Shown here: positions 8,300 through 22,492 of the stretch, in pieces | How positions within the stretch are numbered: position 1 is the first letter of the stretch | Layout of the letters: the number at the start of each line of letters is the position of its first letter | From: a virus | Strand: one strand, 5' to 3' | DNA length: 33,881 nt | IMG/VR virus record: IMGVR_UViG_3300042891_001818 | Coordinates: 1-33,881 of that record | Position numbers and translations under genes: made by a program | The notes under the pieces: model-generated | Database searches by the model: none | What the model was told of the DNA's origin: nothing | What the model saw: the letters and a program-made list of their open reading frames with translations, nothing else

Positions 8300-8322
8300 A
8301 AAGTAACCGTAAAGGAAGAAAT

Positions 8323-8889
8323 ATGATTAAATTGAAATCATTGTTAATGGAAGCAGATCCAGGTGATCCATCGCAATCAACAGTTGATATATCATCAATT
8401 ATGTCTGAATTAAAATCTGCATGCAATACATTCAATACAGAGATTGCTAATAAAACTAAATTAAACCTAGGAAATAACGGTTTAACGACTCTAGTAACGC
8501 CGGAAGGAATGATTGCCGAAGGCCCATACATTGCTATAACATCGCCGTTCATACAAAACACTTATGGGACTAAAAACCCATATGGCTATATAGGTGTAGA
8601 ACTTTCAAAAGGGCGGTATCTTGGGAACAGTGCTAGTACACCTAGAGGAATTACTTTGCCGGCTTTTTTATTATACATGAATAGCTTTATAGATACTGCA
8701 ATAGGTGGTAAACCTGGTACTGACAAAGGTAATAAATTTATCTCTAAATTCAAAGATCAAATTAATGCTGCAGGAACAACATTATTCAATACTGTAGATC
8801 CGATATTTAAAAAATTATTAGCATATAAAGGATATAATTCAGCAACTACAGCTACTGACGGTAAAGTTACTATTAGTAAAACAGCTTAA
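8323..8889 (+). CDS. Probable packaged internal protein, paralog 1 (188 aa)
   Basis: Unknown family, first of a tandem pair. The N-terminus MIKLKSLLME|ADPGDPSQ has an L-x-E site directly before the segment that also starts the mature part of the next protein; this fits T4 gp21-type prohead cleavage. The body is rich in Gly, Thr, Asn and beta-type sequence, with ITSPFIQNTYGTKNPYGYIG and VDPIFKKLLAYKGYNSAT shared with the paralog. No catalytic motif is visible. It has a clear ribosome site AAGGAAG and a late-type motif upstream. Packaging into the capsid is inferred. Confidence 0.7.
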   Translation: MIKLKSLLMEADPGDPSQSTVDISSIMSELKSACNTFNTEIANKTKLNLGNNGLTTLVTPEGMIAEGPYIAITSPFIQNTYGTKNPYGYIGVELSKGRYLGNSASTPRGITLPAFLLYMNSFIDTAIGGKPGTDKGNKFISKFKDQINAAGTTLFNTVDPIFKKLLAYKGYNSATTATDGKVTISKTA

Positions 8890-8917
8890 TATATTAAAGT
8901 ATTCGTAAAGGAAATAA

Positions 8918-9553
8918 ATGAAAAATATTTTAGCAGAAAACATGCTTAGATTCGGTCCGCGTAATTTAACCGAATCAGAAAAAAGAAACCTACAAAGATT
9001 GACAGAAGCAGATCCAGGCGATCCATCACAAGCAACAGTTGATTTAACTGCTGATATGACAGCATTAAAATCAGCATGCACTGCATTTAATACAGAGATT
9101 GCTAATAAAACTAAATTAAAACTAGGAAATAACGGTTTAACAACTTTGGTTACTCCAGAAGGACAAACAACCGGTGGACCGTATATTACTATAACTTCTC
9201 CTTATTTTCAAAACATATCTGGAACTAAAAGACCATATGGTATGATAGGTGTAGAACTTTCAAAAGGGTATTATGGTGTACATAATTGGGGGGTGGCTGC
9301 AATAAACGAAGCTTCTTTACAAAGATTATTAATTTCTATAAAAAATCTTATAGGTCAAACTGTTATAGCTGGTGACAGAGGTAGTGACAAAGGTTCGAAG
9401 TTTAATGATAAATACCATGATCAAATTAGTGCAGCAACAACAACATTATTTAATACCGTAGATCCGATATTTAGAAAATTATTAACATATAAAGGATATA
9501 ATTCAGCTACAATATCACCAACTGGTGAAGTTACTATTAGTAAAACAGCTTAA
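8918..9553 (+). CDS. Probable packaged internal protein, paralog 2 (211 aa)
   Basis: Tandem duplicate of the preceding gene with a longer propeptide: MKNILAENMLRFGPRNLTES up to RLTE|ADPGDPSQ. Protein identity is highest at EIANKTKLKLGNNGLTTLVT, VDPIFRKLL, YKGYNSAT and the C-terminal VTISKTA. DNA at 9095-9145 differs from 8440-8490 at very few positions, so the duplication or gene conversion is recent. The 28-nt gap carries AAAGGAA. Function unknown. Confidence 0.7.
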   Translation: MKNILAENMLRFGPRNLTESEKRNLQRLTEADPGDPSQATVDLTADMTALKSACTAFNTEIANKTKLKLGNNGLTTLVTPEGQTTGGPYITITSPYFQNISGTKRPYGMIGVELSKGYYGVHNWGVAAINEASLQRLLISIKNLIGQTVIAGDRGSDKGSKFNDKYHDQISAATTTLFNTVDPIFRKLLTYKGYNSATISPTGEVTISKTA

Positions 9554-9582
9554 TATATTAAAGTATACAAAAAGGAAAACAA

Positions 9583-10233
9583 ATGATAAAATTAAAAAAT
9601 ATTTTAGCAGAAAATATGCTTAGATTTGGAACTAAAAATTTAAACGAATCAACTAAACAAAAATTAATAGAATCGGGGTCTACAGAACCTGGCGATCCAT
9701 CACAATCAACTGTCGATTTATCTGATGATTTTAGAAATGCTAATTCTGCACTACAAACATACGCAGATACGTATAATGCATTAACAAAACCAGAAAAACA
9801 AGATAAAAAACCTATAACATTATCATTGATAACAGATCCAACTGATCCAAATAATTTATTAATTACAGGAGCCGGACGTGCCACTGCGGGAGATGCAAAA
9901 GGTAAAGAAGCACAAAATTATATTTTTAAATACAATATGCCAACGCAAACATTAACAAGAAGACTTTACGTTAACAATCAATGGACAACTAAAACAATTG
10001 CATCGAATCCGCAAAATATAGGTTCAGGTCCAGATGGCATTTGGAGATATGGTGGCGCAACATCTGATAAAAACGTTCAAGCTGTTAAAAATGCAGCTGA
10101 TAAAGTAGGTAACGCAGTTATAACATTATTTTATAAGATAAGAGATACTGCACCAAAAGGATCTGTTGAAGTATCGCGCCATTGGGATGAGTTTAAATTA
10201 GGTACGCCGGAGCAACGAGCTCAGAACTATTAA
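9583..10233 (+). CDS. Probable packaged internal protein, third member (216 aa)
   Basis: Shares the propeptide (ILAENMLRFGTKNLNEST, candidate cleavage after KLIE) and the first mature residues EPGDPSQSTVDL with the two preceding genes. The rest of the protein is different, with ITLSLITDPTDPNNLLITGA and RRLYVNNQWTTK. So the packaging tag and mature start have been joined to a new body. The stop TAA overlaps by 4 nt the stop of the convergent secreted-protein gene. No known domain seen. Confidence 0.68.
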   Translation: MIKLKNILAENMLRFGTKNLNESTKQKLIESGSTEPGDPSQSTVDLSDDFRNANSALQTYADTYNALTKPEKQDKKPITLSLITDPTDPNNLLITGAGRATAGDAKGKEAQNYIFKYNMPTQTLTRRLYVNNQWTTKTIASNPQNIGSGPDGIWRYGGATSDKNVQAVKNAADKVGNAVITLFYKIRDTAPKGSVEVSRHWDEFKLGTPEQRAQNY

Positions 10234-10664
10234 TTTACAATAACTTTAAAATCGGTTTTAATTTCAACTTTAGTTACTCGTTGAATTTCATTAAACCAAT
10301 AATAAAATACAGAATTGGTATTCATATCAATGATAAAATTACTGCGTACTGGTAATCCATTAACATCATAATCTTCCATAACGAAATGCAATACATTGTC
10401 ATTGTTTTCAAATTTTACGATTGATACCGTATTAACATATACTCCATGATAATAATAACTACATGTACTATCCGTTAAATTTAATACATGACGAGTATCG
10501 GTATATGTAGTATCAACAATTTTATCCGGAAATTCGACGGCATCTAAGTATGAAACGTTGCCGTGCATAATATGCATTTTAACTTGAGAAACGGATACTG
10601 TATATGTTTGAGAAAATACGGAAGTGCTAATAATAATAGCAACAATTGAAAATATGCGTTTCAT
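10230..10664 (-). CDS. Secreted or periplasmic protein with signal peptide, 144 aa
   Basis: Begins with a typical Bacteroidota Sec signal peptide: MKRIFSIVAIIISTSVFS, with probable cleavage before QTYTVSVSQ. The mature part is beta-rich, with many Val, Tyr and Asp, and no known domain. It has its own host-type promoter (10693-10725), faces the surrounding plus-strand genes and overlaps one of them tail to tail by 4 nt. This is the pattern of a moron gene expressed from the host side, for example to alter the cell surface or block superinfection. That role is inferred. Confidence 0.72.
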   Translation of the reverse strand: MKRIFSIVAIIISTSVFSQTYTVSVSQVKMHIMHGNVSYLDAVEFPDKIVDTTYTDTRHVLNLTDSTCSYYYHGVYVNTVSIVKFENNDNVLHFVMEDYDVNGLPVRSNFIIDMNTNSVFYYWFNEIQRVTKVEIKTDFKVIVN

Positions 10665-10692
10665 GTTTTAATTTATTAATTGGTTAATTACT

Positions 10693-10725
10693 AGTATAAT
10701 ATGAAAATTATTTATATTTTCCAAC
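10693..10725 (-). promoter_or_regulatory. Host-type promoter of the secreted-protein gene
   Basis: TTG, 20-nt spacer, TATTATAC on the minus strand, about 30 nt before the ATG at 10664. Downstream, ACTAGTAATTAAC is shared with the rhomboid gene leader. Confidence 0.5.
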
Positions 10726-10758
10726 CATTACGTAAAATATGTTTTTTTTTTAGATGCG

Positions 10759-10770
10759 TATATTTATATT
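10759..10770 (+). promoter_or_regulatory. Late-type upstream motif
   Basis: TATATTTATATT followed by AAAG, 31 nt before the ATG at 10801, the same layout as at 8288. Confidence 0.45.
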
Positions 10771-10800
10771 AAAGAAAGTAACCAAAAAGGAATAAAACAA

Positions 10801-11409
10801 ATGAGCAAGAATTTATTATCAGAAAACATGCTTCGTTTTGGAACCAAAAATTTATCAGAAGGTGCCAAACGAAACTTAGTTTTAGAAAGCGTAATGCAAA
10901 CTATTAAAGAACATGGGTTGTATAACGAAGTTAAACGCAGATTGATGGAATTTGCCGGTGGAAAGACAGCAGAAGAAGTTGCTGACGGACTATGGAGTGC
11001 ATTTTCAATGGTAGGATCATCCGATCTATTAGGCGTAGTTAATAATTTACAATATATAAAAACCGGTGCAGATTATAATGCAGTTAACGAACTTTTGTTT
11101 AAAAATAAAGGTTTGAATATGGTTGGTGCAATGAAAAAATATCTTCCTGGTGAAGAATTAACAGAAGTTCCTGCAGGTAAAAAAACACATGCATTAGATG
11201 AATTGATGAGAATTAATTATCCTGGCCAATATAACGCGGCTGTAAAAGCCGGCCGGCTTGGTATTGACTGGGGTAGTGGCTCTCCATATGATTTAGATGG
11301 TACAATGTATGATGGAATAACAACAAGCAATACTACATGGCAAAAGACAAAGCGCCAAATGTCTTTTACAACAAACCGAGAATTACGAGGCGGCGGTGGT
11401 GGTGATTAA
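10801..11409 (+). CDS. Probable packaged internal protein, fourth member (202 aa)
   Basis: Begins with the same tag as the others: LLSENMLRFGTKNLSEGAKR. Candidate L-x-E cleavage sites are LVLE (about 30) and RLME (about 56); FAGGKTAEE would start the mature part after the second. The remaining body is helical with an Ala/Gly-rich middle and a Gly-rich C-terminus (LRGGGGGD). It is followed by a strong terminator at 11431. No enzymatic motif seen. Confidence 0.68.
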   Translation: MSKNLLSENMLRFGTKNLSEGAKRNLVLESVMQTIKEHGLYNEVKRRLMEFAGGKTAEEVADGLWSAFSMVGSSDLLGVVNNLQYIKTGADYNAVNELLFKNKGLNMVGAMKKYLPGEELTEVPAGKKTHALDELMRINYPGQYNAAVKAGRLGIDWGSGSPYDLDGTMYDGITTSNTTWQKTKRQMSFTTNRELRGGGGGD

Positions 11410-11430
11410 AAATTTCATAAATTTTAATAC

Positions 11431-11453
11431 AAAGGGGCAATGCCCCTTTTTTT
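11431..11453 (+). terminator. Rho-independent terminator
   Basis: AAAGGGGC, loop AAT, GCCCCTTT followed by a T run, just after the plus-strand gene ending at 11409. It separates convergent transcripts; in the other direction the T run is short. Confidence 0.85.
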
Positions 11454-12048
11454 ATGTTCTTACTTTAATGTTAAAGAATAATTTATCCGATATGCTAATA
11501 ACAAATCCAGATGCAATACCAATTAAATGTGGTACATATAAATAAAAATCACTGTTACTAAATTCCATTATATGAATACACTCATCAAATACAAATAAAA
11601 AACAAAACGTTTTTAATGCAAAACTCAAAGATGCATTTAATTGATTTTTAAGAATTATAAAAGCCGCTAATGATGCATAAACAATTGTTGATAACCCTGC
11701 AAAGTTATTTGATACATTGGATAGTAATTGAATTCCGATCACATTAACAATAATTGTTATTAAAATTAACCATAAAAATCTACGCTTTAAAATTCTTTCA
11801 CATTCGGCGCCGATTAATATAAAATACAAACAATTGTATAGCAAATGCGTTATCTTAACATCGTGACTAAAAGAAAAAGTTAAGATTTGAAATATGTTAA
11901 AATTTTCATTTGAAAATTGATATAAACCTACATACTTACTAAGATTGGTATCATTAATAAAAAAGATAACATTGATGACGTAAAATACTATAGATATAAT
12001 TAAAATAGATCTAGTAACGATAGGAATATCAAAAAATAATTTTTTCAT
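11452..12048 (-). CDS. Rhomboid-family intramembrane serine protease
   Basis: This 198-aa protein has about six hydrophobic segments and the rhomboid active-site pattern. It has ITHLLYNCLYFIL (His68 and Asn72, equal to HxxxN of GlpG TM2), FAGLSTIVYA (nucleophile Ser120; GlpG has GLSGVVYA) and PHLIGIASGF (catalytic His174; GlpG AHIAGLAIGL). The only change is Thr for the second Gly of GxSG. It would cleave membrane-protein helices in the host inner membrane. It has its own host-type promoter and is oriented against the packaged-protein genes, like a moron. Phage rhomboids are rare. Confidence 0.82.
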   Translation of the reverse strand: MKKLFFDIPIVTRSILIISIVFYVINVIFFINDTNLSKYVGLYQFSNENFNIFQILTFSFSHDVKITHLLYNCLYFILIGAECERILKRRFLWLILITIIVNVIGIQLLSNVSNNFAGLSTIVYASLAAFIILKNQLNASLSFALKTFCFLFVFDECIHIMEFSNSDFYLYVPHLIGIASGFVISISDKLFFNIKVRT

Positions 12049-12077
12049 GGCTTAATACTTTAATTAGTTAATTACTA

Positions 12078-12109
12078 GTAATATATAAAATAAGCTAGTA
12101 TTATCCAAT
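12078..12109 (-). promoter_or_regulatory. Host-type promoter of the rhomboid gene
   Basis: TTG, 20-nt spacer, TATATTAC on the minus strand, 30-60 nt upstream of the ATG at 12048. The stretch after the -7 box is nearly the same as before the secreted-protein gene. Confidence 0.5.
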
Positions 12110-12131
12110 CAAATATAAAATATTTTTGAAA

Positions 12132-12698
12132 TTAATCACGTTTTACAAAACCACTTAAAAAGTCTCGTTGCTTTTGGATTGCTTCATCGAGTTCAGAATT
12201 TTTTCGTTTTTTTGTATGTTGTCGCTGCACTCCATTATTGCTAGGCTTAACATCATTCTCCACCCTGGTTGATCGTTTGGTGTTTGATTTAATTTTTCGA
12301 TCAGTGGCACTAGAAGATTTTCGCTTGTTTGAATCACTGCTTCGGCTTTCATTATTTGGCCTTGGGGCGTCTCTAAAAATTTCTGAATCTGTATATGTTC
12401 TAGGCCCGGCGTCAATTCGTTTCTTAAGTTCATCAACTCCAATGGAATTTGTATCTTCGAAGAAGATGCATCCAATTTGGTAACTGGTTCTATATCCTTT
12501 GATTTGAATGCCGCACGGATACGTTGTGTTATTAGCACGTACGCTGTATTGAATACCCCAATTAGTTGTTTTATGATTTTTAACATAACCGTATTTTTTT
12601 GCCCCCAACCACGTAAATAAAACAGGCTCTCCTAGTTTAAAGAGAGCCTTGTTAAATTGTTTTTCTATGTTATCAGGAAGATGTTTATTTTTTGCCAT
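12132..12698 (-). CDS. Unknown protein with basic tail, 188 aa
   Basis: Not recognised. The N-terminal half (about 15-85) looks like a folded beta domain: LGEPVLFTWLGAKKYGYV, then NWGIQYSVRANNTTYPCGIQ. The second half is highly charged, Ser/Lys/Arg-rich and probably disordered, ending in a short helix (IQKQRDFLSGFVKRD). It could bind nucleic acid. A second open frame of 143 codons lies entirely inside it. A stem of about 11 bp (GGCTCTC paired with GAGAGCC) lies in codons near the start. Confidence 0.62.
   Translation of the reverse strand: MAKNKHLPDNIEKQFNKALFKLGEPVLFTWLGAKKYGYVKNHKTTNWGIQYSVRANNTTYPCGIQIKGYRTSYQIGCIFFEDTNSIGVDELKKRIDAGPRTYTDSEIFRDAPRPNNESRSSDSNKRKSSSATDRKIKSNTKRSTRVENDVKPSNNGVQRQHTKKRKNSELDEAIQKQRDFLSGFVKRD
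12155..12586 (-). CDS. Possible overprinted gene nested in another frame, 143 aa
   Basis: Same strand as 12132-12698, in another frame. It starts at ATG 12586 and has no stop for 143 codons. The product looks protein-like: hydrophobic N-terminus (MLKIIKQLIGVFNTAYVLIT), then a helical domain with MKAEAVIQTSENLLVPLIEK and MMLSLAIMECSDNIQKNEKI. No clear ribosome site precedes the ATG. It is either a true overlapping gene or a long chance frame; it partly covers the low-complexity tail of the other product. Confidence 0.4.
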   Translation of the reverse strand: MLKIIKQLIGVFNTAYVLITQRIRAAFKSKDIEPVTKLDASSSKIQIPLELMNLRNELTPGLEHIQIQKFLETPQGQIMKAEAVIQTSENLLVPLIEKLNQTPNDQPGWRMMLSLAIMECSDNIQKNEKILNSMKQSKSNETF

Positions 12699-12704
12699 TG
12701 ACCT

Positions 12705-13148
12705 TTAATTAAAACAGATACCGGTAATTTGATCTACAATGTAAAATATTCGCATATACTTAGTAACCTTATCTTTACGAAACATTTTTTCTTGTTCTAC
12801 ATCTCGTTGAAGAATGTATCCAGCTTCTATAAAACGATTTTTTACTAAACGCAATGCACGCAAACTATTTGCTTCAATCATGATAATTTCATCATCAATC
12901 ATTACATCGACTCTATCAAAGCTACGAGTCTCGTCAGCTTTTGTTGTGGTCTCTTGTTCTTTTTCTTTTTCTTCTAATTGCGTATGTATAGCACTAAAAA
13001 AATTAGAAAGATCAATTGCTTTGATTGTAGTAACTGCAGATGATTCATATAACCCGAACATGTAATTTAAACGTTCTTGCAAAGGCAATGTCTTAAAAAA
13101 TACATATTCTTGTTTAGAAATACTAATTTTTTCGAATCTTGTTTCCAT
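12705..13148 (-). CDS. Unknown protein, 147 aa
   Basis: Not recognised. It opens METRFEKISISKQEYVFF, has a coiled-coil acidic segment (LEEKEKEQETTTKADE) near the middle and a mixed alpha/beta C-terminus (VDVMIDDEIIMIEANSLRAL). It starts inside the end of the upstream small gene (26-nt overlap) and ends 6 nt before the next, so it is part of the 14858-12132 operon. Confidence 0.6.
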   Translation of the reverse strand: METRFEKISISKQEYVFFKTLPLQERLNYMFGLYESSAVTTIKAIDLSNFFSAIHTQLEEKEKEQETTTKADETRSFDRVDVMIDDEIIMIEANSLRALRLVKNRFIEAGYILQRDVEQEKMFRKDKVTKYMRIFYIVDQITGICFN

Positions 13149-13311
13149 GGTCGTCCTCTTTTTTTATTACAAATAATTCATCAATTGCAGCAATATTTAG
13201 TTGCTTAATTTTTGATATTTGTTCTCGTGCTTCGAACAAACCCGTTGCCTTTACACGACCAATTATTTCATGTTTAGAATCTGTTTTATATGCATATGTA
13301 TACGTATCCAT
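13123..13311 (-). CDS. Unknown small protein, 62 aa
   Basis: Begins MDTYTYAYKTDSKHEIIGRV. The pattern (short beta hairpin, then A-x-x-x-F-E-A-R-E-Q-I helix) is like small DUF4494-type or PcfM-type domains in which a beta strand is followed by 'A..L.EA...'. No firm family. Overlaps the next gene by 26 nt. Confidence 0.58.
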   Translation of the reverse strand: MDTYTYAYKTDSKHEIIGRVKATGLFEAREQISKIKQLNIAAIDELFVIKKEDDHGNKIRKN

Positions 13312-13316
13312 CTTAC

Positions 13317-13703
13317 TTATAAATATAAACCTAATTCATAAGCTCGCATACAAGATGTCAAAGAATCATGCAAAGTTTCTGATAAACGTTGTATTTCGTG
13401 TGGACGTAATGTCATTGTATAAGTTTTTACATCTACTGAAAATACAGAGTCTTTACCTGAATCTCGGGTTCTACCTGCTTGTTCTTGTACGGATTTTGAA
13501 TATGCAATCAAATCTTTATATTTCATTTTGATTATGCATCCTGCTACATATAATTGTCCAATAGTACAATTCATTGGATCTTCTTTAAATACTTCAGCTG
13601 ACATTTTGTCTTGAAATACAAAATCAATGTCTGCCCAAGTGTTACCGTTACGATTACGGATTTTGTCTGAAATACCCCAAGGGTGGTTTACGCTTTTTAT
13701 CAT
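13317..13703 (-). CDS. Unknown protein, 128 aa
   Basis: Not recognised. Distinctive segments are WGISDKIRNRNGNTWADIDF near the start and VDVKTYTMTLRPHEIQRLSE near the end. There are no membrane segments or cysteine clusters. It lies in the same-direction operon, 5 nt after the methyltransferase gene. Confidence 0.58.
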   Translation of the reverse strand: MIKSVNHPWGISDKIRNRNGNTWADIDFVFQDKMSAEVFKEDPMNCTIGQLYVAGCIIKMKYKDLIAYSKSVQEQAGRTRDSGKDSVFSVDVKTYTMTLRPHEIQRLSETLHDSLTSCMRAYELGLYL

Positions 13704-13708
13704 GGTTT

Positions 13709-14371
13709 TTAAAATTTATAAATGTTTACAGTATATACATCACGTGAATAATTGTTTCGTATGGTAACGTATTGATATTTTTCTATTAACATGTCCAACA
13801 TTAAGCCAGGATGAACATACAAGAAACCATCATGATGTGTTGTTTTGATTGGATTAAGCAAATTAAATGAAACTACTTGACGCGTCAAGTTATACATGAT
13901 ATCTACATCATCAAATAGTTTAGTTAAATCTTCATTTTCTGTTTGACAACGACGTTGAGTGAATACTCCTGATGCAACTACCCAATCGTGCACGTCAAAT
14001 TTAGCTGTTTCAAAGGCGCCTACGGTAATATCCGTTAACGCCCATTTTTCTTCGCCTAACTGCGTCATTATAGGATTATGGTCTATGGCATTATAGAATA
14101 CTATAGTATCATTTAACGCAGCCAATTCGCGTGCTACGGCGTATAAATCGCATCTACCACAGCCGATATCCAATAAACTACCTCCATTGAACCCTACTAG
14201 CAAGTTTTGCATTAAAAAACGTTGTTCAGCTGTGGTATTGTATCCGACGGGTAATGGACTATACATCATATAATCTTCATCTGTCGGAGTCAAAGCATCC
14301 CAACGTTCGTAATCTTCGGGTGAGTTTGTCAAATTTTGCAAAACTTTTTCAAATACTTCTTTAGTTTTCAT
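13709..14371 (-). CDS. SAM-dependent methyltransferase
   Basis: This 220-aa protein has a class I methyltransferase glycine motif, SLLDIGCGRCDLY at about 65-77, followed by an acidic residue after the next strand (YNAIDHNPIMTQ) for the ribose hydroxyls, and a FDVHDWVVASGVFTQ strand matching motif IV. No DPPY or NPPY DNA-methylase motif is present, so the substrate (DNA, small molecule or protein) cannot be told. It is in the small-gene operon with DUF4494, with a 1-nt overlap at its start. Confidence 0.75.
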   Translation of the reverse strand: MKTKEVFEKVLQNLTNSPEDYERWDALTPTDEDYMMYSPLPVGYNTTAEQRFLMQNLLVGFNGGSLLDIGCGRCDLYAVARELAALNDTIVFYNAIDHNPIMTQLGEEKWALTDITVGAFETAKFDVHDWVVASGVFTQRRCQTENEDLTKLFDDVDIMYNLTRQVVSFNLLNPIKTTHHDGFLYVHPGLMLDMLIEKYQYVTIRNNYSRDVYTVNIYKF

Positions 14372-14649
14372 TAGTCTGCTCTAACAATTGGTAATTGATC
14401 TGTTGCTAATAATTCTTTGTATGGTATAGTTGTCTGAATCATACCAGATTCGCACAATAAACCAGATAAATACTTGTTGATATATGTTCTACATGATGTA
14501 TTTGTATTAACCATAGTCATTGCACTTCGATTTTCAAACAAAACATCATACATAACACCTTTGTTAACAACAAATTTATCTAGGATCACTCCAACTCGGT
14601 TAGTACCCTCCTGGGTGATGATAACCGTTTCGCCAATTTTATATGACAT
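14371..14649 (-). CDS. Unknown small protein, possible SH3-like fold, 92 aa
   Basis: The N-terminal half, IGETVIITQEGTNRVGVILD and MYDVLFENRSAM, has the pattern of an SH3/KOW-like small barrel. The rest is helical. It overlaps both neighbours by 1 nt, so it is translationally coupled to DUF4494 upstream and the methyltransferase downstream. Confidence 0.58.
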   Translation of the reverse strand: MSYKIGETVIITQEGTNRVGVILDKFVVNKGVMYDVLFENRSAMTMVNTNTSCRTYINKYLSGLLCESGMIQTTIPYKELLATDQLPIVRAD

Positions 14650-14858
14650 TATTCGATAATTTTAATGATTTTACTTGATGTTACTGATTTTACTTCAAAA
14701 TCGAACATTACTCCTTTGAAATCTTGCACTACTTTGGCTTCTGCCTCAGTTACTGATAATGCTTCTACGAGATACGTTTCAGTAACTCTTTTTTCTTTTG
14801 TGCCTTTCGGCGTGTCAATTGTGTCAATTAGCTGTACTTTTGCTACGTAATAACCCAT
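14649..14858 (-). CDS. DUF4494-type protein, 69 aa
   Basis: Matches the small DUF4494 family found almost only in Bacteroidota and their phages. The first strand is YYVAKVQLIDTI, then KRVTETYLVEALSVTEAEAK (family pattern K-V-T-E-x-Y-L-V-x-A-L-S-x-T-E-A-E), and the last strand SSKIIKII. Function unknown. First gene of the 14858-12132 operon; a TTG-N20-TATAATTT promoter lies 36-68 nt upstream. It is one of the better host clues in the window. Confidence 0.74.
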   Translation of the reverse strand: MGYYVAKVQLIDTIDTPKGTKEKRVTETYLVEALSVTEAEAKVVQDFKGVMFDFEVKSVTSSKIIKIIE

Positions 14859-14893
14859 TTTTTAAAAATTTAATTAATAACTTATTTTATATA

Positions 14894-14926
14894 TAAATTA
14901 TATGAAAAAATATGATAAGTTCCAAT
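14894..14926 (-). promoter_or_regulatory. Host-type promoter of the DUF4494 operon
   Basis: TTGG, then TATAATTTATA after a 20-nt spacer counted from TTG, on the minus strand before the ATG at 14858. Confidence 0.5.
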
Positions 14927-15756
14927 TATTTTTTATCTAAAATTTTTTTTAATCGTTGTTGATCTCGATGCATTTCATATGATCGTTGTATTTGTTTTGG
15001 CGTTAAATCAAAATTTATCATCAAGTTATCTAAAATATCTGCAATCAAACGCTGCTTTTCAGTTACTGAATATTTTTTTCTTGAAAATATATCAATGATT
15101 GATATTAAGTGTTTAATATAAGTTTTAGGTAATTCTTTGACTATACGAGATTGTTTAGTATGTATAATATTATCATGTTTTTTTTCATTTAAAACCTTTC
15201 TAGTAGTTAAACTAGTCTCAGTTAGTAAATCACCATATCCCATAATCCATTCGGTTGGTGTACCACCCGGTGGTGGTGGAGGTGGAGTTTCCCCAGCTGG
15301 AGCACCTGCAGGCGGAGCTCCTCCCGCTGCACTACCTGCTTCTGCTTTTTCTTTATCGTCTGCACCAAATCCTTTAACATCATCTAAAGACAGTTGTAAT
15401 TCAATTGTATAATCTATATTACGTCCCCATCCTGTATATGGAACTATTTTAATTATTTTTAATTTTAATAGATTTAAAAGAATACTCGGTGTACAATTTA
15501 ATTCTTTGCCACTTCTACTAACAAATTCACGAACACCTATATCAGATATAGAATATAATATTCCTATATGTTGCGTACCATATGCATCAAATTTACCAAG
15601 AAATTTTTGTTCAGCTGGGGTAAATGCAGACCCGGGGTCTGAACTAGGCGCATTATCTGTTTCTAATTTTTTAGAACCGCCATCAGCTGGTTCTTCTTGT
15701 TCAGAAATCATTTCTCGTAATGTACGTAATATAATATGTTCGTTTAATTGTTTCAT
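14926..15756 (-). CDS. Unknown virion-region protein with Pro/Gly linker, 276 aa
   Basis: The N-terminus MKQLNEHIILRTLREMISE|QEE is an amphipathic helix ending in I-S-E, a possible prohead-protease site. A globular part (about 45-130) follows, with FGKFDAYG-like and ILYSISDIGVREFV segments resembling a winged-helix fold. Then comes an Ala/Pro/Gly linker (AGGAPPAGAPAGETPPPPPP) at about 142-165. The C-terminal 100 residues are basic and helical. Function unknown; probably virion-associated because of the N-terminus and neighbours. Confidence 0.62.
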   Translation of the reverse strand: MKQLNEHIILRTLREMISEQEEPADGGSKKLETDNAPSSDPGSAFTPAEQKFLGKFDAYGTQHIGILYSISDIGVREFVSRSGKELNCTPSILLNLLKLKIIKIVPYTGWGRNIDYTIELQLSLDDVKGFGADDKEKAEAGSAAGGAPPAGAPAGETPPPPPPGGTPTEWIMGYGDLLTETSLTTRKVLNEKKHDNIIHTKQSRIVKELPKTYIKHLISIIDIFSRKKYSVTEKQRLIADILDNLMINFDLTPKQIQRSYEMHRDQQRLKKILDKK

Positions 15757-15938: not shown

Positions 15939-15958
15939 ATTAACCTTTATTTTATTTA

Positions 15959-16144
15959 TTATAAATATAGTCGATCCATTAAAATGAATATATTTTTTTC
16001 CGATGTTTCTAGAGTTGTATATGCGTCTAATTCTATGTAAATTTTTGAATTAGCTTCGTATATTCTAATAATTTTATCAATGTTTATGAATTGGGTTTGT
16101 TCTTGCCCATTTATCATAACGCGAATTGATAAAAATTTTTTCAT
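15959..16144 (-). CDS. Unknown small beta protein, 61 aa
   Basis: Begins MKKFLSIRVMINGQEQTQFI and is strongly beta-patterned, with IDKIIRIYEANSKIYIELD. No family recognised. The ATG overlaps the stop of the upstream gene by 1 nt. It lies between a propeptide-bearing protein and the histone-like gene. Confidence 0.55.
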   Translation of the reverse strand: MKKFLSIRVMINGQEQTQFINIDKIIRIYEANSKIYIELDAYTTLETSEKNIFILMDRLYL

Positions 16145-16737
16145 TAATCACCTGTCCAATATCCGCCGGCACGATTTTTACTTGGAGCTCCTATACTGCC
16201 TCCTTGTTGAGAAGCCTGTATAACAGACCCCGTTAATGGCGTATCTGTTAATTGATTGAAATCAATAGAAGTTATATTTGTTACTGCCATTAAATGTGCT
16301 ACAATATCTTTTGTAATTGTTTTTGTAGATGTTAGCCCGGATTGTAATAATTTAACTATTTGATCTGTACGCAATTTAGGTCCGACGCTAGCTTGATACC
16401 AAGCGTCTTTTGGAAGTTTAGTTGCATTTGATTGAATAAAATCAGCTAATTTATACGGATTAATATTATCTGGAATATCAAAACGTCGTAAATCTAAACG
16501 ATTTGTAACCACATCAGGTAATTGCATCCAATCCGTATTCTCATATTCATCAGCAAAATCTGCACCCATATCGGCATCTACAGACATTAAAGCTGCTCTA
16601 CGTACATCTGTAGAAAGATTTTTCCATATTTCAGATTCATTGTATTCTCGTAAAATACGTTTAGCTCTCGTAATTTCTTCTTTGAATATTTGTCTAAACG
16701 TTTCGTTACTTTCTAAAAGTTTTTTAAATTTTTTCAT
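16144..16737 (-). CDS. Probable packaged or virion protein, 197 aa
   Basis: The N-terminus MKKFKKLLE|SNETFRQ fits the basic helix plus L-x-E tag. The body has IWKNLSTDVRRAALMSVDAD then MGADFADEYENTDWMQLPDV, a distinctive acidic helical region, and a Gly-rich C-terminus (KNRAGGYWTGD). No catalytic motif. It follows the cell-wall enzyme gene by 25 nt and has its own late-type motif. Confidence 0.62.
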   Translation of the reverse strand: MKKFKKLLESNETFRQIFKEEITRAKRILREYNESEIWKNLSTDVRRAALMSVDADMGADFADEYENTDWMQLPDVVTNRLDLRRFDIPDNINPYKLADFIQSNATKLPKDAWYQASVGPKLRTDQIVKLLQSGLTSTKTITKDIVAHLMAVTNITSIDFNQLTDTPLTGSVIQASQQGGSIGAPSKNRAGGYWTGD

Positions 16738-16754
16738 GATGTCTTTTATTTTTA

Positions 16755-16764
16755 TATAAATATT
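16755..16764 (-). promoter_or_regulatory. Late-type upstream motif
   Basis: Sense strand AATATTTATA, 18 nt before the ATG at 16737, overlapping the stop of the preceding gene. Confidence 0.42.
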
Positions 16765-18760
16765 AGCTTAAACGAGCTTTTATCTCTTTACCTATAGTAT
16801 TATATATATCAGTATATGCATGTGCATCTGTTTGATTGCCGATTGCGGTTGGAATAATAGTAACACCATTATTTGCAAAATATGAATAATATGTGTCTAC
16901 TGTTTTTTGACTTACCGTTGTTAATGGTTTTGACCATGTAGCTTTCGGACCATATGTTCCTTTAACGACTAATAGTTTCGCATTCGGAAATTTAGCACGA
17001 AGTTGTTTAATAAGTTCGGTTACTGTAGATGGAGATGTTTTATATATACCATTAGTACCGATACATATTACCACGTTTTTAACGGCAGGATCTACTCCTG
17101 TATATTGTTTAACGTGATTATTTAATAAACCTTCTATAGTAATTCCACTTTTCCATAAACCAGTTGCAGCTTGTATTCCTGCAGAACGAGCGACATTTGG
17201 TGTTAATGAATCTCCAATTGCAATACTTTTACCTAATTTATCAGGAGATGTTGTAGTTGTTGTAGCTGTTGAATCTTCAACTTTACCGCCTAATTCTAAA
17301 ATTCGCTTTTCCATGAATTTCATTAATTGGTCCATTGATTTTCCACCCTGACCATATACGTCTCCTGGAAATGATGCCCATATTTTATTAGCACCGATAA
17401 ATACCGTAGGCCAGTCGCCTGCATCTACTGCTGCTAATAATTTAGGACTAAGTAACATTAAAGCTCCTTTATCTTGACTCTCTCTAGAGAAATCTGAAAA
17501 TCCTAATCCCTTCCATGTAGTTGATAAAAATCCATATCTACCAGCTGCAGTAGAACACGTCATTTTTCCTTTAATTGGCGCACATATACTGATATTAGGA
17601 TGTTTTGCTAAACTATCAAATTGTTTACCGGTAAATAACGTATAATATCCATTGTTCGGATACTGTTCGGTACCTTCTGCATATGCAATTGCATCTAAAA
17701 ATGCTTTACGATTAATTGTTGACCCGCCGGAGATATGTTTATAATTTGTGTAATCTTGTGAAACTATGTCGACTGCTGAACTGAATATATCTTGTTTTTT
17801 ATCTTCTTTATTACCTAATATATTCTTCATAAAATCAGGCAATACTGAACTAAATATACTAGCCCAATTTGAAAATGAACGAGCATATGGTTTTAATATA
17901 GTTCTAGCAGTTGTTTCATCTATATATCCAGTAACCGGAAGTTCGTTTATTACTTGAAATGTACGTACTGCTTGATATGTTGTTTCACCAAATAAACCGT
18001 CTTCAATTTCGGAATCATTTATATCATATTCTAAACTTTTCAATTTACGTTGCAACAATGATAATTTTGATGATTTATCGCCTTTTTTAAATAATTTTGC
18101 TCCCGGTTCAATACCTTTTTGTTTTTTCTCTGCAGATTTTTTGTCTATGATATTGGAATCAATAGTTGAATCTATAGATGACAAATACGTAATCCAACGT
18201 TTTGCAATAATCGAATGCCCTTCTTTATTCAATAAAGTTTTATTTTTTTGAAACAAAGTTTTATTATTGGTTAAATTATATGCATCAATATTATAATCTG
18301 CAGATTGTTGAGAATTCATCCAATCTGCAATTTCTTTTGTTGATTTATATTTTACGTGACCATATGGTGCAAATTCTTTATTCGGTGGCGATATTGTAAT
18401 CAATTTAGCACCAGAATCTGTTACTAAATTATACATTATTTTTAAAATTTCAATAGCAGAAACATTATCATTAGGTACTATATTACTAAACATTAAAGAT
18501 ACAACATCATAATTCCCAGCAATATTGGTTTGAAGTAATGATAATACTTTAGTAATATCTCCTTCTACTGTAGAAACAACTTGACCGGTTACTACGCTTG
18601 TATTTAAAATATCATATGCATAACTAAAACGAGAATGAGTATCGCCATCGCCAATAAATAATACATTCATCTTATTCTGCGGGCTAGATGTAGAATCAGT
18701 AGTACGTTCTTTATCAAAGTCAGTGTCTTGTTCTAATAATAGGTTTTTAAGTTTCATCAT
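16763..18760 (-). CDS. Four-domain cell-wall enzyme: SGNH-like, PG-binding, GH104 lytic transglycosylase, SGNH esterase
   Basis: This is a 665-aa protein. Residues 1-10 (MMKLKNLLLE) form a possible packaging tag. About 32-195: SGNH-like domain whose Ser is replaced (FIGDGD in place of GDS) but with a C-terminal GHSIIAKRW block. About 225-290: PG_binding_1 fold, DGLFGETTYQAVRTFQ. About 352-495: lambda R-like GH104 transglycosylase with Glu362 in AYAEGT, AAGRYGFLSTTW, DFSRESQDKGAL and IWASFPGDVYGQGG. About 510-665: intact SGNH hydrolase, with GDS at 516-518, GTN at 568-570 and D645/H647. The esterase could remove O-acetyl groups that block the transglycosylase. Its ATG overlaps the upstream stop (ATGA). 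Confidence 0.87.
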   Translation of the reverse strand: MMKLKNLLLEQDTDFDKERTTDSTSSPQNKMNVLFIGDGDTHSRFSYAYDILNTSVVTGQVVSTVEGDITKVLSLLQTNIAGNYDVVSLMFSNIVPNDNVSAIEILKIMYNLVTDSGAKLITISPPNKEFAPYGHVKYKSTKEIADWMNSQQSADYNIDAYNLTNNKTLFQKNKTLLNKEGHSIIAKRWITYLSSIDSTIDSNIIDKKSAEKKQKGIEPGAKLFKKGDKSSKLSLLQRKLKSLEYDINDSEIEDGLFGETTYQAVRTFQVINELPVTGYIDETTARTILKPYARSFSNWASIFSSVLPDFMKNILGNKEDKKQDIFSSAVDIVSQDYTNYKHISGGSTINRKAFLDAIAYAEGTEQYPNNGYYTLFTGKQFDSLAKHPNISICAPIKGKMTCSTAAGRYGFLSTTWKGLGFSDFSRESQDKGALMLLSPKLLAAVDAGDWPTVFIGANKIWASFPGDVYGQGGKSMDQLMKFMEKRILELGGKVEDSTATTTTTSPDKLGKSIAIGDSLTPNVARSAGIQAATGLWKSGITIEGLLNNHVKQYTGVDPAVKNVVICIGTNGIYKTSPSTVTELIKQLRAKFPNAKLLVVKGTYGPKATWSKPLTTVSQKTVDTYYSYFANNGVTIIPTAIGNQTDAHAYTDIYNTIGKEIKARLS

Positions 18761-18906
18761 CTGCCTTGAGCTACATAAGGTTTAGCATAATTTTTACTAG
18801 TTTTATTTTTACTAGTTTTGCATTTAGCGTGCACGCCAGGACGTTTAACTTTAGGACGCTTGATATGCAATTTAACAGTGTTTTGTTTGGCTTTTGCAGC
18901 TGACAT
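18757..18906 (-). CDS. Small basic protein, 49 aa
   Basis: Very basic: KLHIKRPKVKRPGVHAKCK then two copies of KTSKN, ending PYVAQGR. It probably binds nucleic acid or a negatively charged virion part. It is translationally coupled to the large cell-wall enzyme through an ATGA overlap and follows the ferritin gene by 8 nt. A ribosome site AAGGAG lies before its ATG. No family recognised. Confidence 0.66.
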   Translation of the reverse strand: MSAAKAKQNTVKLHIKRPKVKRPGVHAKCKTSKNKTSKNYAKPYVAQGR

Positions 18907-18914
18907 AATACTCC

Positions 18915-19418
18915 TTAAAAATAGGTTTGTTCAAAATATAGTATTTCAAATTTATTGTCAGTATTAACAAGCTCCGCTGCATTTAACAGGTCTGAATATT
19001 CAATTACAGATTCTGTTTGTCCGGTTCTGTAAGTTGTTAAAAAATCAAACGTAGTTAAATCTGTATCAAATAATTGCTTAGAATCTCGGTTATAAGATTC
19101 AAATAGCGCATATTCTAATGCATACGCTTTGTTAATGATATCAATTAAATCTGAAAATGTTACGTTAGGTCTAATAGAAGGTAATAGTGGCATTACGTTC
19201 CAATCAACTAAATACTTTTGTAACCCTTTTGCATGATCCAATTCATTTTCTGCTTCTTGTGCAAAAAATGCCGCGGCTTTCAAATAACCTATACCTGCAC
19301 ACCAGTTAGTTGCATTGCGATAAAAATAATGAGCAGTGTATTCATCGCCCAATCTATCTGTTAAAATTTTAACTGATGCATCTGCTAATGTTTTTGGTGT
19401 TTTAATTGTTGTACTCAT
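18915..19418 (-). CDS. Ferritin (non-haem, FtnA-like)
   Basis: This 167-aa four-helix protein aligns along its length with bacterial ferritin. Ferroxidase residues are present: Glu26 (GDEYTAHYFY), Glu59 and His62 (AENELDHAKG; 33 residues from Glu26, the same spacing as Glu17-Glu50 in E. coli FtnA), a Glu in ALEYALFESY, and Gln/Glu in RTGQTESVIEY. It should oxidise and store iron. It is followed by the coupled basic protein and cell-wall enzyme, so it is expressed with late genes. Iron storage in a lytic phage is unusual; it could be a packaged or iron-protecting protein. Confidence 0.85.
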   Translation of the reverse strand: MSTTIKTPKTLADASVKILTDRLGDEYTAHYFYRNATNWCAGIGYLKAAAFFAQEAENELDHAKGLQKYLVDWNVMPLLPSIRPNVTFSDLIDIINKAYALEYALFESYNRDSKQLFDTDLTTFDFLTTYRTGQTESVIEYSDLLNAAELVNTDNKFEILYFEQTYF

Positions 19419-19434
19419 TCGATATCTTTTTTTA

Positions 19435-19444
19435 TATAAATATA
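19435..19444 (-). promoter_or_regulatory. Late-type upstream motif of the ferritin operon
   Basis: Sense strand TATATTTATA, 17 nt before the ATG at 19418, and just downstream of a terminator, so the ferritin operon must start here. Confidence 0.5.
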
Positions 19445-19451
19445 TGGACAG

Positions 19452-19477
19452 TAAAAAAGCCCCCGTTATAGGGGCTT
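19452..19477 (-). terminator. Rho-independent terminator
   Basis: On the minus strand: AAGCCCC, 7-nt loop, GGGGCTT, then a T run. It ends the transcript of the gene at 19498-19728 and isolates the ferritin operon. Confidence 0.88.
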
Positions 19478-19497
19478 ATAATTCAATTTAATTAAAA

Positions 19498-19728
19498 TTA
19501 ATCAAAAGCATTTTCCATGCGCTGTGTCATAGGGTTAACTTCTTGTTGAACATATTTAATTATGTTTTCGCTCTGAGTTACAATTGTCCCATGCTCTCCG
19601 TGAGTTACTACCCCGCCATTAGGACTTGTTTTCAATTTCAAAATGCCATTACCCAAATCGGTTACTTCTACTTTTTCAGATTCCAATTGGTGAGTGTTTG
19701 TACTCGGCTCTAAAACTACTTTTTGCAT
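19498..19728 (-). CDS. Unknown small protein, 76 aa
   Basis: Not recognised. Beta-rich in the middle (VEVTDLGNGILKLKTSPNGG) with a polar C-terminus. It stands alone between its own host-type promoter and a strong terminator, so it is a monocistronic early-type gene inside the late region. Confidence 0.58.
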   Translation of the reverse strand: MQKVVLEPSTNTHQLESEKVEVTDLGNGILKLKTSPNGGVVTHGEHGTIVTQSENIIKYVQQEVNPMTQRMENAFD

Positions 19729-19753
19729 ATACTATAAATTAAAGGTTACATAA

Positions 19754-19785
19754 TTATTATAAAAAAACTTTTGGTAAAATCCAAC
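19754..19785 (-). promoter_or_regulatory. Host-type promoter of the gene at 19728
   Basis: TTG, 20-nt spacer, TATAATAA on the minus strand, preceded by GGT, as in the early-region promoters. Confidence 0.52.
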
Positions 19786-19789
19786 CAAA

Positions 19790-20557
19790 TTAACTTTGGG
19801 CTGTCAACAATTCAAAATATTGATCTTTGCTTAAAGACACCATTTGTCCTCTAGGCTCAACGTCTTGTTTCAATTCAACCAACAAAATATCTCCTTGACG
19901 TTTCAATTCTTTGATAAAAGGAATCAAATTCTCATGCACAAAAAATGTACGGGCAATTGCTTCTAACGGGTCATCACTATATTGACGGTCAATCCAAAGC
20001 CAATGTTCATTATTTGTAGTTGTACACCAGCAACGCACTGCAAATATGTCATTTGTTAAATTCAATGCCCGGCCGGATACTTGATGTGTTTCAAATATAA
20101 CATCATATTCGTGATATCCTAAAAATTCTCCAGATTTAGAAAATTGTTTGTGACGAACTGGTCTACCTGCTGTTGCAATCCGGGTATGTCCTAATGCCTT
20201 AATCATATCAGATACTCGGATGCTACTAAATACAACCCCTTTCCAATAAGCCCACGGACATTCGAATGCTTCTTGGTATGAATAAGGCTCAACCATATCA
20301 TAATTGTCTTGGAAGAACTCTAACAAATTTGCAACCTCTACTGGCATTTGGTTTGCAAAAGCACGCGTAATCTCATTAATGAAATTTGTCTTGAAACGAG
20401 GCTTATTTGCATACTTATTCTTCAAAAATCGCAAAAATAAAAATTTACCTATTGTAACCGGTTTGCTACCAGACCAACGATCTGATGGAGCAATGATATC
20501 ATTCATTTCGGTATCGAAAACTAAATCAGGATAATTTCTAAAAAAGTATACTTTCAT
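19790..20557 (-). CDS. Unknown protein, 255 aa
   Basis: Not recognised. Opens MKVYFFRNYPDLVFDTEMND and is mixed alpha/beta, with two neighbouring cysteines in AVRCWCTTTNNEHWLWIDRQ and a His-rich HEYDVIFETHQ segment. Aromatic-rich and soluble. It follows the 75-aa gene by 11 nt and is read from the same early-type promoter. Confidence 0.6.
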   Translation of the reverse strand: MKVYFFRNYPDLVFDTEMNDIIAPSDRWSGSKPVTIGKFLFLRFLKNKYANKPRFKTNFINEITRAFANQMPVEVANLLEFFQDNYDMVEPYSYQEAFECPWAYWKGVVFSSIRVSDMIKALGHTRIATAGRPVRHKQFSKSGEFLGYHEYDVIFETHQVSGRALNLTNDIFAVRCWCTTTNNEHWLWIDRQYSDDPLEAIARTFFVHENLIPFIKELKRQGDILLVELKQDVEPRGQMVSLSKDQYFELLTAQS

Positions 20558-20568
20558 GGCTAAAAGGA

Positions 20569-20796
20569 TTAAAGGTTACAATAAACGTGAGTTTCATTTG
20601 ACTTACCGTCTTTACTTGTATAAGTCCAAATACTGTATTGCTCACCTGATACGAATGTACCTTTCCAAGCTAAACGGCCCGAAGGCCAAAATCCAGAAAA
20701 TTTACCGGTTTTTGCATTTGGTGAGTCAACGGCTCTCCCGGGCCATCCATACTCTAAAGCACGTTGCTGTGCTTGTCTTACTTCTAAATCCTTCAT
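20569..20796 (-). CDS. Unknown small protein, 75 aa
   Basis: ATG at 20796 is chosen because it directly follows the early leader AATAAGAGATAT. The product has a WPSGRLAWKGTF then YSIWTYTSKDGKS pattern of short beta strands, reminiscent of MORN-like or other strand-turn repeats. No firm family. Confidence 0.58.
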   Translation of the reverse strand: MKDLEVRQAQQRALEYGWPGRAVDSPNAKTGKFSGFWPSGRLAWKGTFVSGEQYSIWTYTSKDGKSNETHVYCNL

Positions 20797-20810
20797 ATAT
20801 CTCTTATTTT

Positions 20811-20870
20811 TTATATAATATAAAGATAAGAAATAAATCAATACGATCCAAGCATTTTAGCAAAAAAGTT
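20811..20870 (-). promoter_or_regulatory. Early promoter module (copy 1)
   Basis: TTG-GATCGTATTG-N10-TATCTTTA on the minus strand, spacer 20, then the A-rich leader of the gene at 20796. The only full module inside the late region. Confidence 0.7.
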
Positions 20871-20882
20871 TCATGAAACAGT

Positions 20883-20908
20883 AAAAAAGTGCAACATTGC
20901 TGCTGCAC
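20883..20908 (-). terminator. Rho-independent terminator with GCAA tetraloop
   Basis: On the minus strand: GTGCAGCA, GCAA, TGTTGCAC, then six T. Eight-base-pair stem with a GNRA loop, directly after the gene 20954-21364. Confidence 0.86.
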
Positions 20909-20953
20909 TCTATACGTTCACCTCAAAACGTATTGCCTAAGGTAGCAGGCATC

Positions 20954-21364
20954 TTAAAGTTCGTCTTGTAATGTATCAATTAAATCTGCGATTTTTACCA
21001 ATTGTTTTAGTATTATACTTTTTTCTGAAGTTGGCACATTGGAATTAGTAGAAAGATCTTGCATACATCGGTCAACGCAATCTTCAAGTTTCTCAACTAT
21101 CTCAGAAACATCACCATTGGATTCTCTAGAAGATTTACCACCGCCATACATTTGCGAACTACGATCAAATTCATCTTCGCCATATTCATTCAAATCTTCC
21201 GGCTCATACCACTTACCATCACCATCATTATCCTGCCATCTAGGCTCTTTTTTAGCCTTATTGGCTTCGTGTACTGCTATTGAATCCTTAAGGGTAGGCA
21301 AAGACCCATCTGCCTTACGTTCCCACGCATATCCTTCTAAAAGTGATTTTAATTTAAGCGCCAT
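20954..21364 (-). CDS. Probable packaged protein with one EF-hand loop, 136 aa
   Basis: The N-terminus MALKLKSLLE|GYAWERK fits the tag plus L-x-E cleavage. About residues 44-57 form a canonical calcium-binding loop, DNDGDGKWYEPE (acidic at 1, 3, 5 and 12, Gly at 6), as in EF-hands and dockerins. The C-terminus is helical and acidic, with two cysteines in LEDCVDRCMQDL. Calcium binding inside the virion is plausible but inferred. Single gene, flanked by a late-type motif and a terminator. Confidence 0.7.
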   Translation of the reverse strand: MALKLKSLLEGYAWERKADGSLPTLKDSIAVHEANKAKKEPRWQDNDGDGKWYEPEDLNEYGEDEFDRSSQMYGGGKSSRESNGDVSEIVEKLEDCVDRCMQDLSTNSNVPTSEKSIILKQLVKIADLIDTLQDEL

Positions 21365-21380
21365 TGTTATCCTAATTTAA

Positions 21381-21390
21381 AATAAATATT
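21381..21390 (-). promoter_or_regulatory. Late-type upstream motif
   Basis: Sense strand AATATTTATT, 17 nt before the ATG at 21364. Confidence 0.4.
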
Positions 21391-21452
21391 AGTACGTTTG
21401 TATTTCTTCTAGAACGTTAGTGCGACCTTCCAGGTCCGCACGAGTCCGCACA

Positions 21453-21983
21453 TTACTTGGTACCCGTTGCATCTGCGTTGCTACGTCGAACCAACCACAA
21501 TTGATCTCTACGCTGCATTGACATGTATCCCGCGGATGCTATACGCGCCCAATTGTCCTTGACAAATGCAGCATATAAACGAGTCTTTTGATACTCTTTG
21601 TCAGAATCCGAATCGGCTCCGGATATATTAACAGCTTCAGGTGCATGATTTGTGCAAAAGTCTAAGATGGCTTCTCCGGCAGTACGTATGAGTCGTAAAT
21701 AGTTGAGTTGACCGACAGCACCACTTTTTGTGTGTGATGTAGTGCGGCCGGCAGTTTGTGCATTAGCATTACGTGTAGGCATCGTAAATGCAAAATACCA
21801 TTCATTGTACATTGAATCATTGTTACCGCCATGTATCATGATGAATTCCATGTTTGTGGAATCGGCCGTAACGACACATTTCCATTGATCGGTTGATCCC
21901 ATGGGTTGCCATACGAATTGAGTGGCATAAGGTTGGACAGCGCCAAAGGTAATTTCCGTTAATATGTTGTGTAATTTAATCAT
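21453..21983 (-). CDS. Probable packaged protein, tandem paralog B (176 aa)
   Basis: Close relative of the gene just upstream. Tag MIKLHNILTE|ITFGAVQPYATQFVW; shared blocks are YLRLIRTAGEAILDFC, YQKTRLYAAF and the C-terminal LWLVRRSNADATG. Compact alpha/beta protein of unknown function. The ATG overlaps the stop of its paralog by 1 nt, and the two would be made together. Less AT-rich than most late genes. Confidence 0.67.
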   Translation of the reverse strand: MIKLHNILTEITFGAVQPYATQFVWQPMGSTDQWKCVVTADSTNMEFIMIHGGNNDSMYNEWYFAFTMPTRNANAQTAGRTTSHTKSGAVGQLNYLRLIRTAGEAILDFCTNHAPEAVNISGADSDSDKEYQKTRLYAAFVKDNWARIASAGYMSMQRRDQLWLVRRSNADATGTK

Positions 21984-22492
21984 TATTTTACGCCCGTTGC
22001 ATCTGCGTTGGATTTACGCACTAAATATAATTTTCCATTTTGATCTAGAATGGTGTACCCAGCACCTGCTATCTTACCCGCATTAGCATGAAGCAGGTTG
22101 CGGTATATGCGAGTCTTTTGAAGGTCTTTGCCGGCTTGGCTATCATACCCGGTAACATCCACTGCCGTTGGGGCATATTGGCCACAAAAGTCTAGTATTG
22201 CTTCCCCTGCTGTTTGCAACACCCGCAAATAAGACAATTTGCCAGCAACCGTACTATTTGAGTGGGTAACCGTGAATCCGTTTAACATGTATTGACCGGG
22301 CATCGCAATAGCAAAAGCATATTCTTCACCTTCTCTAGAAAACTGTGTACCCATTTCAAAAAGCACTGTTACGTCATCACACTGAACACGGGTTTCATAT
22401 CCTGCATCTACGGGACTCCACACAAACTGGGTCGCATATGGGGCAATGCTCCCCATGGTAATTTCGGCCAATAAGTCCCTCATTCGTATCAT
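21983..22492 (-). CDS. Probable packaged protein, tandem paralog A (169 aa)
   Basis: Begins MIRMRDLLAE|ITMGSIAPYATQFVW. The start at 22492 or at the in-frame ATG 22483 is preferred over a further upstream ATG, because the conserved tag begins here. Shared with its paralog: YLRVLQTAGEAILDFC, LQKTRIYRNL and LYLVRKSNADATG. Unknown function. A CATATTTATTAATATG palindrome covers the start region (22490-22505). Confidence 0.66.
   Translation of the reverse strand: MIRMRDLLAEITMGSIAPYATQFVWSPVDAGYETRVQCDDVTVLFEMGTQFSREGEEYAFAIAMPGQYMLNGFTVTHSNSTVAGKLSYLRVLQTAGEAILDFCGQYAPTAVDVTGYDSQAGKDLQKTRIYRNLLHANAGKIAGAGYTILDQNGKLYLVRKSNADATGVK

Follow-up and report, generated by a model that had tools for sequence, protein, structure and literature searches.

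The virus record fragment IMGVR_UViG_3300042891_001818, 33,881 bases in length (hereafter the window; G+C 34%), carries baseplate genes at its left end and, between positions 8,323 and 22,492, a set of genes whose products begin with a short N-terminal tag ending in [LI]-x-E. An initial annotation had placed ten such proteins here and read the tag as a propeptide of the kind that brings T4 internal proteins into the phage head. All ten N-termini are present. Nine of them belong to the family, by virtue of a decamer tag, a long tag or an LxE propeptide that is conserved, whereas that of gene 16144-16737 does not. The decamer tag, exemplified by MIKLKSLLME, has its glutamate at residue 10, a position shared by six of the genes (named here by their lower coordinate: 8323, 9583, 16763, 20954, 21453 and, when read from an inner ATG at 22492, 21983). 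The extended or long tag consists of MKNILAENMLRFGTKNLSE followed by further LxE steps, and ends at E30 (8918, 9583) or E50 (10801).

On the forward strand, gene 8323 consists of the decamer tag MIKLKSLLME (8323..8352, +) and a predicted mature cargo of no known family (8353..8889, +), with the predicted cut falling before ADPGDPSQ. Gene 8918 carries the extended tag MKNILAENMLRFGPRNLTESEKRNLQRLTE (8918..9007, +) ahead of its own predicted mature cargo (9008..9553, +), and the predicted cut again falls before ADPGDPSQ. The observation that these two tags of different type stop at the same mature start holds exactly. A scan of IMG/VR with the 8918 body alone found no relative. The extended tag of gene 9583 (9583..9672, +) ends in KLIE, and its first ten residues, MIKLKNILAE, with LxE also at residue 10, form a decamer tag by themselves; the predicted mature cargo, beginning SGSTEPGDPSQ (9673..10233, +), is a distant relative of the 8918 body. 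Gene 10801 has a long extended tag of 50 amino acids ending in RRLME (10801..10950, +), followed by its predicted mature cargo (10951..11409, +).

The remaining members lie on the reverse strand. The propeptide of gene 14926-15756 (15700..15756, −) is longer than the decamer and ends in MISE at E19; its length varies among orthologs, yet all 14 of them keep LxE with Q or A directly behind it. Gene 16763 encodes a wall enzyme of 665 amino acids with PG_binding_1, lambda-type lysozyme and GDSL-like domains, preceded by the decamer MMKLKNLLLE (18731..18760, −), which is retained in orthologs. In the 20954 gene, the decamer MALKLKSLLE (21335..21364, −) likewise has an LxE that orthologs keep before [GA][YF]AWER. 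The paralogous genes 21453 and 21983 bear the decamers MIKLHNILTE (21954..21983, −) before ITFG and MIRMRDLLAE (22463..22492, −) before ITMG, the latter gene most likely starting at the inner ATG at 22492. Both tags stop precisely before IT(F/M)G, as had been proposed, and in most orthologs of this family the mature start I[TA] follows LTE, LAE or LSE. The predicted fold of the 21453 family is a moderate model (predicted local distance difference test, pLDDT, 77) without a PDB match at E<=0.001. As for gene 16144-16737, the MKKFKKLLE claimed as its tag (16711..16737, −) finds no support in orthologs: KRLLE is present in its nearest relative only, and other orthologs start like MKIFDIKNPKHVQILKEEL. 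Because KKLLE is not conserved, this gene is to be dropped from the tag family.

Comparisons were made across 12 genomes with 1,412 genes, comprising the window, ten relatives and Flavobacterium phage immuto. Of named cultured phages, immuto is the closest relative (capsid protein 56% and protease 54% identical), and a Microcystis phage is about as close by the same two proteins; a megablast search of window positions 8000-23000 against cultured phages gave no match. Given that immuto is the nearest named relative, and given the signal peptides described below, the window phage, which is T4-like, probably has its host among Flavobacterium-type bacteria (Bacteroidota).

The decamer tag is far more frequent in these genomes than expected by chance. 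A strict decamer rule, in the writing of which the relatives played no part, selects 48 of the 1,412 genes, including five of the 69 in the window, against a mean of 0.33 and a maximum of 3 in 1,000 shuffles of residues 2-14, and an expectation of 0.10 from internal positions. The long tag is found on 95 distinct viral proteins, of which 93 have testable bodies that fall into 70 blastp clusters. When IMG/VR was searched for the pattern NMLRFGTKN, 43 matches were obtained on 34 contig stretches, every one of them no more than 22 residues downstream of an ATG. Outside this phage group, a search of 84,980 genomes of bacteria and archaea gave two chance-like matches to the long-tag pattern, neither resembling the tag, and none of 50,697 records of cultured phages matched the long tag. 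Short queries of this kind can be found, since a like search of cultured phages recovers immuto's own tag. Searching the literature for parts of the tag sequence gave no result.

Conservation of the tag resides in the peptide and not in the DNA: second codon positions mismatch at a rate of 0.12 and third positions at 0.43, and identity over the preceding 30 bases is only 42%. The same figures bear on the alternative that the conserved start is a translation or mRNA leader with no role as a protein signal. The motif ATATTTAT, common upstream of cargo genes, would fit a leader, but a peptide that persists through third-position change in a poorly conserved surrounding makes this explanation scarcely credible.

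The tags and the bodies behind them combine in a modular way. The bodies had been described as mostly unrelated, which requires correction within the window, given the paralogous pairs 8323/8918 and 21453/21983 and the distant relationship of 9583. Such relationships are what would be expected if the shared N-terminus were a relic of common descent, with all tagged proteins being paralogs whose bodies have diverged beyond recognition. However, similar bodies bear different tags, as in the window genes 8323 (decamer) and 8918 (long). One body cluster in relative G001 unites the short-tag gene 123858 with the long-tag genes 125213 and 125918, and a common body is shared by L010 (long tag) and G002 61647 (short tag). 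Conversely, the same tag precedes unrelated bodies, as in a T4-type capsid targeting sequence; most bodies belong to no known family, and those recognised include lysozymes, peptidoglycan-binding and LysM proteins and a SET-domain protein. Furthermore, similarity between proteins tends to end at LxE. In 37% of 2,272 pairs with unrelated bodies, it ends within two residues of the LxE glutamate, compared to a mean of 10% and a maximum of 21% in a shuffled-tail control, a result that is to be read as a strong trend and not as a calibrated probability because the pairs are not independent. Together with the membership of the bodies in unrelated families, this leaves common descent very improbable as an explanation of the tag.

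Among the decamer-tagged proteins of the relatives, two deserve mention for their bodies. A SET-domain protein (L128:2480-2923; PF00856, E 1.9e-9) is encoded in the G011 counterpart of the variable island described below. A protein of about 180 amino acids (L127:2542-3087), which seven other relatives also encode as an ortholog, has no Pfam match, although its sequence resembles a kinase N-lobe (IGGGDNGRVYEIDGEDKVFKIT).

In T4, L/I-X-E is the motif after which the protease gp21 cuts, and the N-terminal 10 residues of IPIII are enough for incorporation into the head (PMC9026906). Measured against T4 itself, gp24 (MAKINELLRE) and IPII/IPIII (MKTYQEFIAE) have their glutamate at residue 10, as does the decamer tag. 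A gp21-like protease, on whose presence in the complete genome the initial annotation had staked its reading, is encoded by the relatives: PF03420 scores above its curated cut-off in nine of 14 larger tag-bearing contigs. Among them is G011, a contig syntenic with the window that has orthologs of 14926, 16763, 20954, 21453 and 21983. The protease of G002, the sole copy aligned, matches T4 gp21 (5jbl, E 2e-23), with a histidine in LDHPESS and a serine in GISSRGLGS at positions where the 5jbl chain has alanine; these are the catalytic positions of T4 gp21, mutated in that chain. The gp21 gene of the relatives is grouped with that of the major capsid protein, and terminase, portal, scaffold and PhoH genes also lie nearby, as read from the sequences and from the annotation of immuto homologs. 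Core genes adjoining gp21 encode LxE propeptides of their own, FFG[LI]xE and LKFILE or LKYILE, that are kept in most relatives. The major capsid protein has QLLE before N, which is similarly kept across most relatives and, if the alignment is extended, would lie some three residues away from the site at which T4 gp23 is cut.

The head operon also bears on whether the tag might target the virion tail or baseplate instead of the head core, with LxE cut or left uncut for other reasons. Lysozymes or peptidoglycan-binding proteins, for which a tail function is typical, account for several of the tagged bodies. Nevertheless, LxE propeptides are common to the core genes of the gp21 operon, and the described substrates of T4 gp21 are head proteins (PMC9026906), making a tail destination improbable.

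Taken together, the stereotyped and modular tag, its LxE end, the occurrence of different tags on similar bodies, and the presence in relatives of gp21 and of core genes with LxE suggest, with a probability of roughly 85%, that these N-termini are T4-type capsid-targeting propeptides by which unrelated proteins are loaded into the head, cut by gp21 and probably delivered with the DNA. Those defining features of a T4 capsid targeting sequence that sequence data can test are all found here, namely an N-terminal propeptide ending in [LI]-x-E, gp21 in relatives and unrelated bodies. The T4-like reading of the initial annotation is thereby upheld, with gp21 in relatives, the propeptides of the core genes and the IPIII decamer as its supports, and head targeting in particular is well supported at the level of sequence. 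In the proposed mechanism, the tag would bind the prohead core and bring unrelated cargo inside, gp21 would remove it after [LI]-x-E, and the mature cargo would remain inside the head and probably pass into the host together with the DNA, to act there. Many T4 internal proteins and Alt are ejected (PMC9026906), and injection of the cargo would follow this precedent.

Several points weigh against this interpretation. PF03420 is not found in the window, because the window is a 33.9-kb fragment, and virion proteomics were not found for any of these tag-bearing phages. The lysozymes among the tagged bodies could equally be tail-associated or lysis enzymes. In addition, the decamer rule, like the signal-peptide rule used below, is simple and self-made after the window had been seen; the long-tag set was gathered by searching for the tag, and thus its size carries no information on frequency; and pairs are non-independent in both the boundary test and the partner test.

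Long-tag genes are concentrated at one site. In the window and most of the ten relatives they cluster between orthologs of an endonuclease-like gene (6431-7459) and of gene 12132-12698, both conserved, which in the window bound a variable cargo island at 7460..12131. The content of this island differs between genomes, and its cargo genes are opposite in strand to the flanking genes. A few long-tag genes lie elsewhere (e.g., G002 61342, G003 20229, G005 37658 and G004 82153), and the island of G005 has only a short-tag gene. At the edge of the window island, 7510-8184 reads like an HNH-type homing endonuclease, as does 23534-24076, and the homologs of both are the same three genes of relatives. 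Elsewhere in the window, 18915-19418 reads like a ferritin-like protein; it is untagged and has 81-87% identity in two relatives. PADLOC gave weak single hits only.

Interspersed with the cargo genes of the islands are opposite-strand genes whose products have Sec-type signal peptides ending in Q. Signal-peptide genes make up 16 of 59 genes in islands and 11 of 1,073 elsewhere (odds ratio 36, Fisher p 3e-15), and all 16 lie on the non-cargo strand. Under a looser signal-peptide rule, 67 of 103 long-tag genes have an exported neighbour, 57 of these convergent. The same rule applied to 11 genomes finds an exported neighbour for 18 of 29 long-tag genes compared to nine of 1,167 other genes. These partners form at least two superfamilies, one with a CAP domain (PF00188; 15 of 60) and one of predicted beta-barrels. 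The latter includes the convergent partner of gene 9583 in the window (10230..10664, −), with a Sec signal peptide (MKRIFSIVAIIISTSVFSQ) and a beta-barrel domain modelled by AlphaFold2 at pLDDT 96.8; its best match in the PDB, LolA, is not significant (E 5.8e-3), and a scan with this partner found one close relative only. The convergent neighbour of gene 10801 is a rhomboid-family membrane protein (11452..12048, −; PF01694, E 5.5e-12).

The exported neighbours could be independent passengers that accumulate in the same hotspot and have no relation to the cargo, an alternative that concerns the partnership alone and leaves the reading of the tag untouched. In its favour, many partners have one promoter-like element, and two main superfamilies, CAP and beta-barrel, stand beside many different cargoes. 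However, convergent partners track cargo families: when homologous cargoes from different contigs are paired and both have a convergent partner, the partners too are homologous in 17 of 22 pairs, at cargo identities mostly of 22-42%, against a shuffled mean of 0.72 and a maximum of 5. This is the co-inheritance expected of an effector-immunity-like pair, with the qualification that the pairs are not fully independent. Divergent neighbours are homologous in one of four pairs, too few for a strong contrast or to weigh much against independent passengers, which we would rate well below even odds.

Cargo and partner genes also differ in what precedes them. The motif ATATTTAT, mostly about 25-40 bases ahead of the start, is present upstream of 74% of long-tag cargo genes but only 13% of partners, the figure for all genes being 22%; in the window it precedes gene 8323 at 8289..8296 (+) and gene 10801 at 10760..10767 (+). 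Partners have TTGG[AT] upstream in 89% of cases, compared to 19% of cargoes, and AACCA[AG]TTA in 41%, compared to none of the cargoes. The element TTGG...TATTATA...AACCAATTAA ahead of the 10230 partner (10665..10724, −) is of this type. TAnnTTTG is part of Bacteroidetes promoters, and the sequences upstream of partners do not show it at its usual distance from TTGG. The differing motifs may reflect late expression of cargoes and early expression of partners. As a separate observation, ATATTTAT precedes many genes of the window and its relatives, and is possibly the late promoter of this phage group.

T4 Spackle is described as a periplasmic early phage protein that inhibits the entering gp5 lysozyme (PMC7677548). 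In the producing cell, a secreted partner would miss a cargo made in the cytoplasm, yet it could meet a cargo arriving from outside, as Spackle meets gp5. For this reason, a tentative hypothesis, held well below even odds and apart from the confidence placed in the tag, is that the exported partner blocks the matching cargo arriving from a superinfecting relative, resulting in cargo-specific superinfection exclusion. Under this proposal, which is possible rather than probable, the islands of these T4-like phages, probably of Bacteroidota, would hold interchangeable two-gene cassettes, each pairing a head-packaged, injected effector with a convergent exported neutraliser (CAP or beta-barrel) under a different upstream element.

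If true, phage-phage competition would here be built like effector and immunity systems, and co-inheritance of the exported partners leads to the concrete prediction of cargo-specific exclusion between competing phages. The tag itself offers a sequence handle for head cargo without proteomics, marking nearly a hundred proteins mostly of no known family. It would also represent an expansion of the T4 internal-protein strategy, with a favoured site of exchange, in phages whose hosts probably belong to another bacterial phylum.

The closest comparison is to IPI-IPIII and Alt of T4, with which the window family shares a short N-terminal tag, an L/I-x-E site, unrelated mature bodies and a gp21-type protease, in addition to the glutamate at residue 10 seen in IPII, IPIII and gp24 and the T4-type head operon of the relatives. 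Unlike in T4, the tag has a different sequence and an extended form with several LxE sites (30 and 50 residues, compared to about 10-20 in T4), and the bodies are more numerous and more varied, reside in a fixed island and have linked exported partners. A similar strategy is seen in phiKZ and SPN3US, in which a diverged gp21 (gp175/gp245) cuts the propeptides of several head proteins after glutamate. However, those propeptides are mostly much longer, the SPN3US site is A-x-E (PMC10052503), and no shared short modular tag of the window kind is described there. DarB of P1 and related head-packaged antirestriction proteins likewise carry a capsid targeting signal at the N-terminus. In cultured phages, two proteins of immuto (L138:25061-25456 and L140:11675-12139) share an N-terminus of another sequence, MKKQILSEQF-RMQ-LAGIITES, possibly a tag of the same kind. 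For the exported partners, Spackle and gp5 serve as an analogy only, the target of Spackle being a tail lysozyme whereas the presumed targets of the window-type partners are head cargoes.

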